Assembly: GCF_033845285.1 (NCBI RefSeq) | Contig: NZ_JAWXCX010000001.1 | Location: 2,991,495-3,055,494 of the forward strand | DNA: 64,000 bases | DNA from: Marinococcus sp. PL1-022 | GTDB taxonomy: Bacteria; Bacillota; Bacilli; Bacillales; Marinococcaceae | Direction: 5' to 3' | Shown here: positions 1 to 11,876 of the stretch, one piece after another | Layout: the number at the start of each line of letters is the position of its first letter | Numbering within the stretch: position 1 is the stretch's first letter | Made by a program: the position numbers and the translations under genes | Notes under the pieces: generated by a model | Database searches by the model: none | What the model was told of the DNA's origin: nothing | What the model saw: only the letters and a program-made list of their open reading frames with translations

Positions 1-953
1 AAGTTAGACACCATATCATTCTCCATATACCTCATGAATACTTCCAACGGGGTGCAATAGTCTAACGACTTTCTTGGGATGTGATTTCTTCCGGAGGCCA
101 CAGCGGAAACATACGACTGGTCCACATCCTGAAAATCCATGTGCTTAGGCAGGCCATCCTTTCGGAGGAGGCCATTTGAATGTTCATTTAATCCGCGTTG
201 GGAAGGCGTTCCTGGATCCGCAAAATAAATGGCAAGGTCGTGCCTGTTGCTGATCGACTGCCAGTTGGAAAACTCCTTGCCGCAGTCAAAGGTGATGGAT
301 TTGAATAAGTGTTTCGGGAAACGGCTGCACCACCGGTGCAGCGTGGTTTCAATATCTCTGGCCTTACGGCCGGCTGGTTGAAGGGTAACGATCACTTTCG
401 ATAAACGCTCAACCAGAGTGATCACAGCACTTTGATGGTGACGACCAACAATGGTGTCTCCTTCCAGGTGCCCGAATTCCTGCCGAAAGGCCGGGTACTC
501 CCGGTCCCTGTCCGCAAGAGTCCGCCGAAACGCCTGCTTTCCCCGGCGTTCCTGATGCCCGTTTGGTTTCCGCTTCCCTTTCATTGGCAGGGTGCTTCGA
601 TCCAGCATCCATCGCTCAAACATCCGGTACAGGGTGCGTCCGGAACAGGGAAGCGGACGCTCCCGGCGTCCGGCGATGACATCAGGGGTCCATCCTTCCT
701 TGATTTTCTCGGTGACATAGACCTGGTCGGCGGGCGTTAAGACCGTCGGTCTTCGACCACACCGCTGTTTATTGGCTTGATACCGCTGAACATAATCAAG
801 GGCCCGATGCCCTTCCCGTAAGTAGCTCACGACGTTGTGGATCGTTTGACGGGCACGCCCGAGCTGCCTGGCAATCCGGAAAACCGGGAACTCATTCTGG
901 TTATATGCTTCTATGAGGACAACTTCATTCGTGCTAAGATGGGTGTAGGTCAT
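1..953 (-). CDS. IS30-family transposase, C-terminus cut by window edge
   Basis: This is an uninterrupted reading frame of about 317 codons starting at ATG 951-953 and still open at base 1. The N-terminal third has a helix-turn-helix (RIARQLGRARQTIHNVV), as in IS30 transposases. A DDE-type catalytic core follows, with Asp in GHLEGDTIVG, Asp in SITFDCGKEF and Glu in QRGLNEHSNGLLRK. It would catalyse cut-and-paste or circle-mediated transposition of its own element. No frameshift or internal stop is visible, so the gene may be active. Typical IS30 transposases are 300-380 residues, so only a short C-terminal piece should be missing. Its GC-rich coding style differs sharply from the AT-rich recombinase remnant beside it. 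Confidence 0.9.
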   Translation of the reverse strand, partial: MTYTHLSTNEVVLIEAYNQNEFPVFRIARQLGRARQTIHNVVSYLREGHRALDYVQRYQANKQRCGRRPTVLTPADQVYVTEKIKEGWTPDVIAGRRERPLPCSGRTLYRMFERWMLDRSTLPMKGKRKPNGHQERRGKQAFRRTLADRDREYPAFRQEFGHLEGDTIVGRHHQSAVITLVERLSKVIVTLQPAGRKARDIETTLHRWCSRFPKHLFKSITFDCGKEFSNWQSISNRHDLAIYFADPGTPSQRGLNEHSNGLLRKDGLPKHMDFQDVDQSYVSAVASGRNHIPRKSLDYCTPLEVFMRYMENDMVSN

Positions 954-1030
954 TCGTGATCACTCCTATGATTTCTTTGGTCGGAAATTCATCTTGAGTG
1001 TATCACGAGTGATCTTTTTCGTTGTCTAGC
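1..1030 (-). mobile_element. IS30-family insertion sequence, left end outside window
   Basis: The element consists of one transposase gene read on the minus strand plus about 75 bases of non-coding DNA upstream of it. The right boundary is placed near 1030, where the sequence changes to AT-rich recombinase coding DNA; this is an estimate good to several bases. GTCTAGCTT near 1024-1032 resembles the inverted complement of AAGTTAGAC at the window start, but the true left terminal repeat is not in view, so repeats and target duplication cannot be confirmed. Confidence 0.8.
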
Positions 1031-1465
1031 TTAATTTTACAATCGGCGTACTTTATAGATAGAGAAAAAAATACTCAAAAAAAGTTAAACAATCTTTTAA
1101 ATTTTATTTCTAATGGACAATTAACAAATACCCCTTCTTCTGTTCTAGAAGAAATAAACAAGCTTGATATCGAAAAAAAAGAAATTCAAGATCAGATAAA
1201 GGATTTAAAACAACAACTTAGTCAACCTACCATTGCTCATGTTTCACTAGAACAGATCAAAAATCATTTAACTAATTTCTCTAAAATTTTACCTAATTTA
1301 AAACCAGAACAGCAAAAAGACTTTTTGCATACAATAATTAAAGAAATCACTGTAAATAGTGGTTCATCTCCTTCTAAAAGAACAATCAAACACATAGAAT
1401 TGTTCTTTGACACTTCTTCTGAAACAGACTTTGTGCTTACTTATGATAAGGACTCCCTGCATTAA
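1031..1465 (+). pseudogene. large serine recombinase, C-terminal remnant truncated by IS30 element
   Basis: An open frame of about 145 codons encodes a Lys/Glu-rich coiled-coil segment (EINKLDIEKKEIQDQIKDL) and then a short basic beta-rich tail (PSKRTIKHIELFFD). This is the pattern of the extreme C-terminus of large serine site-specific recombinases (phage integrase, Ccr and TndX types). The catalytic Ser domain, the recombinase domain and the zinc ribbon are absent because the IS30 element replaces everything upstream. The frame stays open into the IS, but the apparent TTG start at 1022 lies in IS DNA and is chimeric. The DNA is far more AT-rich than its neighbours, which indicates foreign origin. 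The stop codon (1463-1465) lies 29 bases inside rlmH, so the recombinase end sits exactly at the presumed attachment site. Confidence 0.75.
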
Positions 1466-1916
1466 TCTGTACTGCACGGTAGATCTGCTCTGTAAGCATC
1501 AGACGTATTAATTGGTGGGGAAAAGTTAGTGCGGAAAACGACCATTTGAAATCAGCCCGTTTTAACACTTCCCTGGATAGACCGAGGGAGCCCCCGATCA
1601 CAAAAACGATCGTACTCGTTCCCTGTACGGCCAGATCCTGGAAGGTTGCAGCCAGCTGTTCAGAAGAAATCATTCTGCCTCCCGGATCGAGAGCAATCAC
1701 GTATCCACGTTCGGGAATCTTTTTGAGAATGCGTTCACCCTCTGTGTCCTTTACCTGCTCATTTTCCTTCTCACTGGCCTGCTCGGGTGTTTTTTCATCC
1801 TTTACTTCAACAATTTCCACTGAGCCCTGCCTGCTCAGTCTTTTTTTATATTCTGCGATTCCTTCATTGATAAATGCTTCTTTGCATTTTCCGACAGCGA
1901 CAATTAATATATTCAC
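1437..1916 (-). CDS. rlmH: 23S rRNA (pseudouridine1915-N3)-methyltransferase RlmH
   Basis: RlmH is a SPOUT-class methyltransferase that methylates pseudouridine 1915 in helix 69 of 23S rRNA using S-adenosylmethionine. The GTG start at 1914-1916 is preceded by GGAGGGGG and gives VNILIVAVGK and 159 residues, the usual family length; a longer frame reaching 1961 is rejected. The knot region is clear: VIALDPGGR, FVIGGSLGLS, and the C-terminal LTEQIYRAVQ...PYHK. Its last codons overlap the end of the serine recombinase remnant. The residues before PYHK read INAGS, whereas B. subtilis has INRGE as I recall, so the tail may have been altered by element integration. It is the last gene of the left-arm block, separated from htrC by a DnaA-box cluster. 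Confidence 0.93.
   Translation of the reverse strand: MNILIVAVGKCKEAFINEGIAEYKKRLSRQGSVEIVEVKDEKTPEQASEKENEQVKDTEGERILKKIPERGYVIALDPGGRMISSEQLAATFQDLAVQGTSTIVFVIGGSLGLSREVLKRADFKWSFSALTFPHQLIRLMLTEQIYRAVQINAGSPYHK
1441..1448. other. putative chromosomal attachment core in rlmH 3' end
   Basis: On the minus strand these bases read TATCATAA, spanning the last Tyr-His-Lys codons of rlmH. The same octamer is the conserved core of SCC attachment sites in staphylococci. The recombinase remnant ends across this site. The second attachment half lies outside the window, so the element boundary is inferred. Confidence 0.5.
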
Positions 1917-6854: not shown

Positions 6855-8701
6855 GATCCAGCCTCCGCTTTATTAATCACTGAATATGGCAGCGTAATTA
6901 ATATAGTGGTTCCTTTTTTCCATTCACTGTCCGCCGCAATCCGTCCACCGTGCGCATGGATAAATTCCTTGGCAATCGCAAGCCCGAGCCCGGTGCCGCC
7001 GAGGTTTCTCGCTCTCGCTTTATCCACCCGGTAAAACCGGTCAAAAATACGGTGCTGGCTTTCTTTCGGAATGCCTACGCCCTGGTCGCTGATTTCAACA
7101 TCTACAGCATCGGCACGCGTAAACATCTGCACACTGATCTCCCCGCCATCCGGCGAATATTTCACGGCATTCGAAAGCACGTTATCAAAAACTTGATAAA
7201 TTCTGTCCTTGTCCATGTCTACGTAAACCGGATAGGAAGGAACCTCTTTATAAAAAGCAATATTTTTATCCTTGTTAATCATTTCAAACCGTTCAATCAC
7301 CTGATTGATCATTTCAGACAGGTCCACAGTAAAAAAGTCTAAGCTGATTTCGTCACTGTCCATCCGCGAAAGCTGCAGCAGGTCGTTCACGAGCCGGATC
7401 ATTCGGTCTGTCTCGTTCTGGGTCACCTGTAAAAAGCGGGGACCCAGATTTTCGTCCTGCATCGCCCCGTCTTCGAGAGCTTCCATGTAGCTTTTCAGCG
7501 TAGTCAGCGGGGTTCTTAATTCGTGGGATACGTTTGATACGAATTCCCGGCGCTCTCTTTCGATCTTTTCCTGTTCTGTAACGTCATGAAGCACGGTAAT
7601 CAAGCCGGTAACCGGTCCGTCTTCGTTTCGTACAATTGAAAAGTTGGCCTGCAGCAGAAAATCCTGTTCCTCGCTGCTGAAATCCAGCATGATTGCTTCA
7701 TTGTAATCATACAAATCGCTCGAGGTCAGTGTCTCTGAGAGGTGCAGGGCTTCTGTAATATATGTGCCTTCCATTTCCTCACTGTTTTTGTTTAACAGCT
7801 GCTCAGCGCGTTTGTTCATCAAAATAATGCGGCCGAGTTCGTCAGTCGCTATAACCCCATCTGTCATATGAGTCAGAACCGAGCTTAATTTCTTTCGTTC
7901 GTCCTCGGTGCTTGCCTGGCTTTCTTTTAATTTCAGCGTCAGCTGGTTAAAGGAATGGGCGAGCTGTCCAATTTCATCGTTGCCGTACACGCGGACTCTC
8001 CGGGAAAAGTCTCCCTCTCCCATAATTTTTGCCTGGCGCTGCATATCTGCGATAGGCCGTGTAATCGTGCGGGCAAGCAAAATACCAAGGATCGCGTTTA
8101 AAATCAGCACAATAATGCTCGCTGCAATTAAGATACTGCTGATGTCATTTACCAGGCTGTACACGCTCGACATATCAGAACGCACGTACAATACACCCAG
8201 AATTTCTCCGTCTTCTTCGATCGGCCGCACAATTAAGCTGACCCTGTGACCGCTGTCCGCGTCCCAGCGTACTTCTTCAAGCGTGTTCCCTAATAACGCC
8301 CGCTGCACAAGGTCGTCGTTTGATTGGTTATTGACGATATCCTGCTCATTTATGTTCGACGTGCCTAAAATAATCTGGTTGGAGCCAATAACCCTGGCTT
8401 CCGGACTTGAATGGCCGGGATCATTGTTTGCTCCTGAATTGGCAAACTGGCTTAATAAACTGTCGATATCCTCCTGCACCGTATTATCGTCTTCTCCCCG
8501 ACTCTGTGCCAGTTCTTCCTGCACATTATACTCCAGAAGATCTGTCTGCTCGGCGAGCGTATCATTAAAATTTTCCACGAGCGTGTCTTCAAGGGCGCTC
8601 GTGAAAAATACGGTAATGAACTGCATCGCTACAAAAATCAGCAGCACGAAGATCAAAATGAGTTTAAAATGAATCGATTTGAAAAAATCGATAATTTTCA
8701 T
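6851..8701 (-). CDS. walK: cell-wall metabolism sensor histidine kinase WalK
   Basis: WalK is the essential sensor kinase that phosphorylates WalR to control autolysin genes. Domains in order: membrane helix 1 (about residues 12-33), an extracellular PDC-like sensor, membrane helix 2 (about 185-208), HAMP with TRPIADMQRQ, a PAS domain (about 260-370), HisKA with the phospho-acceptor in FVSNVSHELRTPL, and HATPase with DNVLSNAVKYS, DQGVGIP and GTGLGLAIAKEF. All catalytic boxes are intact, and 616 residues is normal. It starts 3 bases after the walR stop and overlaps walH by four bases. Confidence 0.96.
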   Translation of the reverse strand: MKIIDFFKSIHFKLILIFVLLIFVAMQFITVFFTSALEDTLVENFNDTLAEQTDLLEYNVQEELAQSRGEDDNTVQEDIDSLLSQFANSGANNDPGHSSPEARVIGSNQIILGTSNINEQDIVNNQSNDDLVQRALLGNTLEEVRWDADSGHRVSLIVRPIEEDGEILGVLYVRSDMSSVYSLVNDISSILIAASIIVLILNAILGILLARTITRPIADMQRQAKIMGEGDFSRRVRVYGNDEIGQLAHSFNQLTLKLKESQASTEDERKKLSSVLTHMTDGVIATDELGRIILMNKRAEQLLNKNSEEMEGTYITEALHLSETLTSSDLYDYNEAIMLDFSSEEQDFLLQANFSIVRNEDGPVTGLITVLHDVTEQEKIERERREFVSNVSHELRTPLTTLKSYMEALEDGAMQDENLGPRFLQVTQNETDRMIRLVNDLLQLSRMDSDEISLDFFTVDLSEMINQVIERFEMINKDKNIAFYKEVPSYPVYVDMDKDRIYQVFDNVLSNAVKYSPDGGEISVQMFTRADAVDVEISDQGVGIPKESQHRIFDRFYRVDKARARNLGGTGLGLAIAKEFIHAHGGRIAADSEWKKGTTILITLPYSVINKAEAGS

Positions 8702-10502: not shown

Positions 10503-11876
<1,374 letters not shown>

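Follow-up and report, generated by a model that had tools for sequence, protein, structure and literature searches.

How does the gene of a recombinase come to end inside rlmH, and what becomes of that recombinase when its element enters or leaves the chromosome? The question is raised by the left edge of the window, by which we mean the whole 64,000-nucleotide stretch of Marinococcus sp. PL1-022 DNA analysed here (C1:2991495-3055494 of a 3.2-Mb genome; negative positions lie to its left). Window 1022-1465 is a plus-strand open frame of 147 residues in the open reading frame list, and it overlaps minus-strand rlmH. The junction has three parts:

1049-1465, plus strand: C-terminal remnant of a Ccr-related large serine recombinase (LSR), from matches to PHROG 95 and to a protein of genome G046
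1437-1916, minus strand: rlmH, 159 residues with a GSPYHK-stop end, its start inferred from the congener G001
1440-1456, no strand: rlmH-side att core CTTATGATAAGGACTCC (TATCATAA on the rlmH strand)

The rlmH product scores 195.7 bits against PF02590, and the gene's stop at 1437 places its final codons within the att site. The remnant ends with a TAA at 1463-1465, inside rlmH, and its own final codons are antisense rlmH. Searched alone against Pfam and the PDB sequences, the fragment gave just weak, unrelated matches. It does match PHROG 95 (integrase) with an E value of 1.2e-9, and the C-terminus of a 536-residue G046 protein, which has Resolvase, Recombinase and zinc-ribbon domains, at 42% over residues 11-137 (E 1.8e-23); these two matches rule out a chance open reading frame. 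A phage or plasmid origin was also rejected, there being 0 matches in 50,697 phage records, 0 in viral contigs and 1 in plasmids, the last a Paenibacillus cellulosilyticus megaplasmid record. The initial annotation had described a C-terminal piece of a serine recombinase on the plus strand with its stop inside minus-strand rlmH, which the PHROG 95 and G046 matches bear out. It had the recombinase part begin at 1031; the true start is 1049, and window 1-1048 belongs to an insertion sequence (IS). Window 1437-1465 codes for the RlmH C-terminus on one strand and for recombinase residues of the LTYGTV type on the other.

-15 to 1048, minus strand: IS30-like insertion sequence of about 1064 bp, from Pfam and a comparison of two copies
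3-953, minus strand: IS transposase open reading frame, Pfam rve and HTH_38

The hallmarks of the IS30 family are an rve core with HTH_38, imperfect terminal inverted repeats and a length of about 1.06 kb. All are seen here (the inverted repeats by eye), with transposase scores of 33.1 for rve (cut-off 32.6) and 26.0 for HTH_38, just under its cut-off of 27. The genome has another copy at C1:1199471-1200505 that matches the stretch from window -15 to 1049 base for base, the match at the last base probably being due to chance. Because two copies could be compared, the IS ends are known to within a base or so; the comparison showed that ends set by an inverted repeat with TTAA flanks, which we had considered, were off by about 20 bases. 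TAC stands on both sides of the IS (-18 to -16 and 1049-1051) and is likely a target duplication, judged by eye. The other piece of the remnant lies left of the IS, at about -132 to -16. Both pieces share one frame (VFNRLEE...ESLNY, then FIDREKN...) and match adjoining parts of the G046 protein. This copy of the LSR is dead, because just the C-terminal part, and no catalytic N-terminus, was seen between the two rlmH-end repeats described next.

-3375 (start; L002 16520), outside the window: distal att core copy TTTGTGATAAGGACTACC, the second rlmH-end repeat
1428-1436, no strand: element-side attP arm ACTTTGTGC, by eye
about -3343, at the island's distal end: inverted attP arm AACAAAGTT, by eye

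The distal core has one change (TATCACAA in place of TATCATAA) and lies 4815 bp from the rlmH-side core, which makes an island of about 4.8 kb. Without the IS, its G+C content is 0.263, against 0.472 and 0.478 in the 10-kb flanks. The ATGTAAAAAGCGCT that follows the distal copy matches sequence 3' of rlmH in G001 and G002, and is therefore the chromosome side of an integration. All three congeners lack the island in the 15 kb downstream of rlmH, and the fragment has no match anywhere in their genomes. The cleanest empty site is that of G002: after an rlmH stop at 617, the homologous chromosome picks up again at 659 of L037, ahead of a DUF4190 gene. In G001 and G003 the island's place is taken by some 0.5-0.9 kb of different DNA; in G001 a 233-residue open reading frame (L036 707-1408), coiled-coil and lipoprotein-like by eye, is found there downstream of rlmH. 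Insertion at the rlmH 3' end, direct repeats of the TATCATAA type and a recognisable empty site are features of SCC elements, and all three are seen here.

Between the repeats, a KwaA-like and a KwaB-like gene lie side by side together with a DUF3800 gene. The KwaA-like protein scores 70 bits with PADLOC and 62 bits against NCBIfam KwaA, below the cut-off of 100; the KwaB-like protein scores 45 bits with PADLOC and 55 bits against Pfam KwaB (cut-off 26), and has no NCBIfam match. The adjacency of the two genes resembles Kiwa (KwaA, KwaB), from which the putative pair differs in that its KwaA is under the NCBIfam cut-off. We read the island as a small defence island with a Kiwa-like pair. The DUF3800 protein also matches the candidate defence model PDC-M04A, and its gene adjoins the pair at L002 16924-19523, left of the window, possibly as one defence unit. 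The initial annotation had expected an rlmH-targeting island with cargo to the left of the window, another copy of the rlmH end further left, relatives with an empty rlmH site and a core shared with SCC; the cargo, the copy at -3375, the three congeners and TATCATAA at 1440-1456 on the rlmH strand match these expectations. Neither of the two findings that would speak against such an island, the fragment without a further repeat in relatives or a lack of kinship with serine recombinases, was made.

To place the remnant, we turned to its relatives. The fragment matches at E 0.001 or better in at least 35 of 397 genomes, its own included, many of the matches being weak. In 12 of 30 relative loci, again including the window's own, rlmH is found within the 1.5-kb flanks. 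Three classes were set by eye from the letters just after rlmH; G012 and G091 were added to this set, as their recombinase matches adjoin their rlmH, and G183, one of the 12 loci near rlmH, was not assigned to a class and does not enter the class counts. The class of the window, class A, comprises G000, G046, G132, G061 and G087, and in G275 a further class A C-terminus stands next to a second copy of the rlmH end. Where class A loci were read beside rlmH, the recombinase is flush with att, and its stop lies 28 bases inside rlmH in four of the five rlmH-adjacent loci; G087 is the exception, its frame staying open further.

Resolvase, Recombinase and zinc-ribbon domains are over the Pfam cut-offs in both relatives tested. 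All three domains precede the split described below, and the enzyme belongs to the serine family and not to the tyrosine integrases. Four intact relatives of the window's type score 379-411 bits against NCBIfam CcrB, whose cut-off is 900; the best scores among five proteins were 411 of 900 for CcrB, 350 of 900 for CcrC and 138 of 700 for CcrA. By the NCBIfam cut-offs, the recombinases are relatives of Ccr and not Ccr itself. A likeness to a phage-type integrase had been suggested for this locus; by the above scores, the recombinase stands closer to CcrB and CcrC than that likeness implies. An XRE regulator lies just upstream in three intact relatives (HTH_3 over cut-off in all three), which also have a small resolvase (G046 by Pfam, L091 and L094 read from the open reading frame list). 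At a matching position, the same three have a minus-strand protein that is over cut-off for Phage_CRI in L094, below cut-off for Rep_trans in G046 and without a match in L091; we take it for a Rep-like protein. With genes of these three kinds on board, replication of the element in circular form is possible. Cargo varies, with a DndB/DGQHR protein in L094 and Hypoth_Ymh in L091.

We read the excised (attP) form by joining the two element ends by script. In the joined form, the recombinase frame crosses the att core and runs for 19 more codons at the opposite element end before it stops. This tail ends with IYISI in G000 and G132 and with VFISI in G046, and the Paenibacillus cellulosilyticus plasmid record, from the same species as L093, also has IYISI after 19 codons; the pattern is (I/V)(Y/F)I-x-I plus stop. 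G087 and G275 have no such tail, their distal end being of another class or decayed. In one species-genome scan, an intact 19-codon tail follows the distal core in 12 of 20 loci, including Pontibacillus salipaludis L096 (which is G132), and the window's own island has one too. An early stop breaks the tail of L102, and no tail was found in the available DNA of L095, L099, L100, L105, L106, L107 and L108 (7 of the 20). The distal candidates of this first set were chosen by eye. No rlmH match was seen at the intact-tail loci L097, L098, L104 and L109, and in L092 rlmH is 7 kb from the tail; these five may be composite or displaced elements. The class A tail keeps its exact length and its ending in genera ranging from Paenibacillus to Pontibacillus. 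Of 11 class A loci, 10 have a hairpin behind the tail stop, at -12.7 kcal/mol or lower and equalled by no more than 1 of 200 mononucleotide shuffles; L094 (160 of 200 shuffles as low) and the window's own island (156 of 200) have no such hairpin. Among the earlier remarks, the one on a recombinase ending across the site was the important one: in relatives the gene continues at the other end of the element. The sequences argue strongly that attP lies inside the integrase gene, and that 19 conserved codons, in most loci along with a hairpin, are cut off from the remainder on integration.

A profile of C-terminus and tail was run on the 15 source genomes, and the two were found at separate places. 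A tail-type match was seen in 14 of the 15 (none in G410), a count that is partly by construction because the profile was made from most of these tails. An intact attP-form gene in one piece turned up neither in the 15 source genomes nor among the scored candidates of 394 genomes. The sole joined copy seen is L147 of G717, in which C-terminus, core, tail and hairpin are contiguous in the predicted order with a frameshifting 5-bp insertion in the arm; judged from this arrangement, it is a decayed joined copy. Among 394 Paenibacillaceae genomes, at least 69 have a tail-type match, at least 27 a C-terminus-type match and at least 15 both; among the scored candidates, 54 of the 69 tail-bearing genomes gave no C-terminus match. 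Remnants, non-autonomous elements or search sensitivity are possible reasons for tail-only genomes. Tail-only ends such as L150, L153, L154 and L155 have no rlmH in the 1.5-kb flanks where inspected, and there are sometimes several per genome. Ends of the tail type that lack a recombinase are possibly non-autonomous or fossil elements.

Judged by eye, L093 has a dyad at attP, TTTGTGCTTA...TAAGCACAAA, centred at a Val|His codon boundary; the tail is therefore what lies beyond the crossover. The arm covers eight tail codons, and the remaining eleven are outside it together with the stop. We compared codons among the 13 intact tails. Outside the arm, stop included, 42.3% of differing codon pairs were synonymous, versus 13.0% after column permutation, with 0 of 3000 permutations as high; such counts are not strict probabilities, because the tails are related by descent and their independence is overstated. 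The corresponding values were 39.2% and 12.5% with the stop excluded (0 of 3000), and 39.2% and 11.9% for 8 non-redundant tails (0 of 3000). The arm codons have no synonymous excess (680 of 3000 permutations as high). The final isoleucine is ATA or ATT, the serine codon TCN or AGY, and the stop TAA, TAG or TGA.

Given that the first distal candidates had been picked by eye, we made a search with the core and arm DNA only. It matched 60 of the 394 Paenibacillaceae genomes, and a reversed-pattern control matched 0 among the hits listed. We read 30 loci of 70 places listed, decayed-looking copies included; three of the 30 tails (L174, L186, L187) were also in the first set. The stop is exactly at the expected codon in 20 of the 30 and absent from it in 10, and there is a premature stop in 4. 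The synonymous share was 29.8% versus 14.2% permuted (0 of 400 as high), and among 17 non-redundant tails, decayed ones included, 21.8% versus 12.0% (20 of 1500). The set picked by its arm agrees with the first, more weakly. On this evidence, codons outside the attP arm vary in the manner of a selected protein-coding sequence.

In integrated copies, the LSR frame reads into antisense rlmH and stops after 3 to 48 residues. Three residues are added in seven of nine rlmH-adjacent loci (PPD, HRG, HPS, HLY, PPD, LPD and PPD); L095 adds 13 and L091 adds 48. A long frame and the catalytic motif are kept in 5 of the 14 copies listed (L090, L091, L094, L095 and L096). Where the Pfam domains are intact, the integrated gene still codes for them, with a different C-terminus. 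An AlphaFold2 model of the C-terminus (5 sequences) had a mean pLDDT of 59.4, and less than 50 over residues 456-521, too poor to place the C-terminus. Recombinases of classes B and C cross the att core in seven of eight loci: those of G012, G094, G091, G169, G090, G361 and G208 have their ends within rlmH, at 56 to 152 bases from the rlmH stop, and that of G226 stops 40 bases short of the rlmH stop. The distal tails of these types are TVVI (G091, G087) and TVTLDRVN or TVTLNRVK (G090, G226, G208), each followed by a stop; no distal end was found for G012, G094, G169 and G361. Hairpins follow four of the five tails of G091, G087, G090, G226 and G208 (0 of 200 shuffles as low), the value for G208 being 16 of 200. 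RlmH itself ends with GEPYLV in L087 (G208) and GEPYHR in L085 (G361), not GEPYHK.

We think it likely that the locus is a decayed 4.8-kb rlmH island brought in by a Ccr-related LSR, whose gene is split at attP and whose C-terminus may act as a switch. The island would have entered the rlmH 3' end through such an LSR, with attP inside the LSR gene, whose final 19 codons and stop, in most cases followed by a terminator-like hairpin, lie at the other element end. Integration would swap the element-encoded tail for host-encoded residues from antisense rlmH. The host's rlmH would stay functional, its final codons being provided by attP. We infer that the full gene is expressed from the excised circle only, and that the tail matters for integration, so that its loss would alter either the reaction preference, favouring one direction, or the half-life of the enzyme.

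A central question about serine integrases is what decides between integration and excision, and the usual answer is a separate directionality factor. We tentatively propose that the present enzymes could do without one: the tailed enzyme made from the circle would integrate, integration would exchange the tail and with it the reaction preference or lifetime, and this would apply to at least three rlmH LSR classes, whose tails are unrelated. If this is true, a recombinase whose C-terminus is rewritten by its own reaction would be a built-in and testable answer to the directionality question, and possibly a one-way tool. Annotated integrated copies give a C-terminus different from that of the circle, and an enzyme produced as annotated there would have the host-altered C-terminus.

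The tail could instead be conserved purely as DNA, as an extended recombinase-binding site or a terminator, the open frame being a by-product. The palindromic arm repeat (TTTGTGCTTA/TAAGCACAAA, by eye) accounts for the conserved K-H-K residues, and the arm codons lack a synonymous excess, as this explanation would have it. It fits poorly with the conserved I-Y-I-x-I and stop, which by eye are some 45-60 bp away from the centre of symmetry, when the attP of A118 is described in part of PMC3556126 as needing 50 bp in all, or with the largely synonymous outer changes, which include TCN/AGY serine codons and all three stop codons. We consider it improbable. Still less probable is that the junction is the edge of an ordinary SCC element with a pseudogene: target and core are as in SCC and the best NCBIfam matches are CcrB and CcrC, but the scores are under half of the Ccr cut-offs, and a single recombinase lies flush with att and not within the element.

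Two further alternatives accept the swap and differ in what it does. Compactness might explain why attP overlaps the gene end, both C-termini being equivalent. The range of integrated C-termini beside rlmH, from 3 to 48 residues, and the unlike tails of the three classes are compatible with a swap of no consequence; the exact length and ending of the class A tail, kept from Paenibacillus to Pontibacillus, are not readily so, and we regard this as somewhat unlikely. A degradation tag is, in our estimate, less likely again. The integrase made from the circle would be short-lived and stabilised by integration (or the reverse), by analogy with mycobacteriophage repressors, for which PMC8092301, in the part available, describes the same architecture of a longer viral and a shorter prophage form with a stop at attL. 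Hydrophobic residues at the end of the tail would suit such a tag, against which stands the absence of an ssrA-like ending (XXXAA). A tag would be a variant of the split-gene switch that we favour, not its denial.

The ccr genes of SCC lie inside the element; here, one LSR spans attP and scores below the Ccr cut-offs. SCC and the enterococcal cassette chromosome (CcrAB, CcrC) otherwise resemble the present island in their target, their TATCATAA core, att repeats of about 50 bp, a Ccr-related LSR and IS involvement, and the enterococcal element shares with SCC the rlmH end and that core, according to passages of PMC6222049. Islands with an LSR downstream of rlmH, composite ones included, are reported across Bacillota with Pol-SSB primases in portions of PMC10061031. 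These islands likewise have rlmH-end repeats, composite tandem arrangements and conflict genes, so that rlmH islands outside staphylococci are already in print; the same portions of PMC10061031 do not mention an LSR gene split at attP, as is found here. The archaeal SSV1-type 'suicidal' integrases, outlined in part of PMC8371274, have attP in the integrase gene, which is split on integration. In both cases the integrase frame crosses the crossover site and continues at the other end of the element. They are tyrosine enzymes whose split form might be inactive, whereas the present serine recombinase keeps its Pfam domains and changes in its C-terminal tail alone.

In the integration-dependent immunity of mycobacteriophages, attP lies in the repressor gene and yields a longer viral and a shorter prophage protein, with the stop at attL (PMC8092301; the repressor analogue also appears in parts of PMC13314858 and PMC9262239). 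There, the repressor gene is switched and the integrase belongs to the tyrosine family; in the present case, it would be the integrase that is switched. For A118, the relevant part of PMC3556126 gives 50 bp of attP as needed in vitro, with specific bases in 44. Searches of open-licence literature, outside which most subscription papers lie, brought up no serine recombinase gene split at attP, and this absence is weak evidence of novelty.

Two minor observations concern element ends at other loci. L078 (G275) contains tandem rlmH islands, a 3-kb segment being followed by a class A element end; in rlmH-forward coordinates, rlmH stops at 8026 and cores lie near 11009 and 17123. An element end resembling GCGCTGTCTGTAACGGCAAG recurs beside the core (by eye) outside classes A-C, in the core region of L140, in L092 near 10513, in L098 near 3733 and in L107 near 10090.
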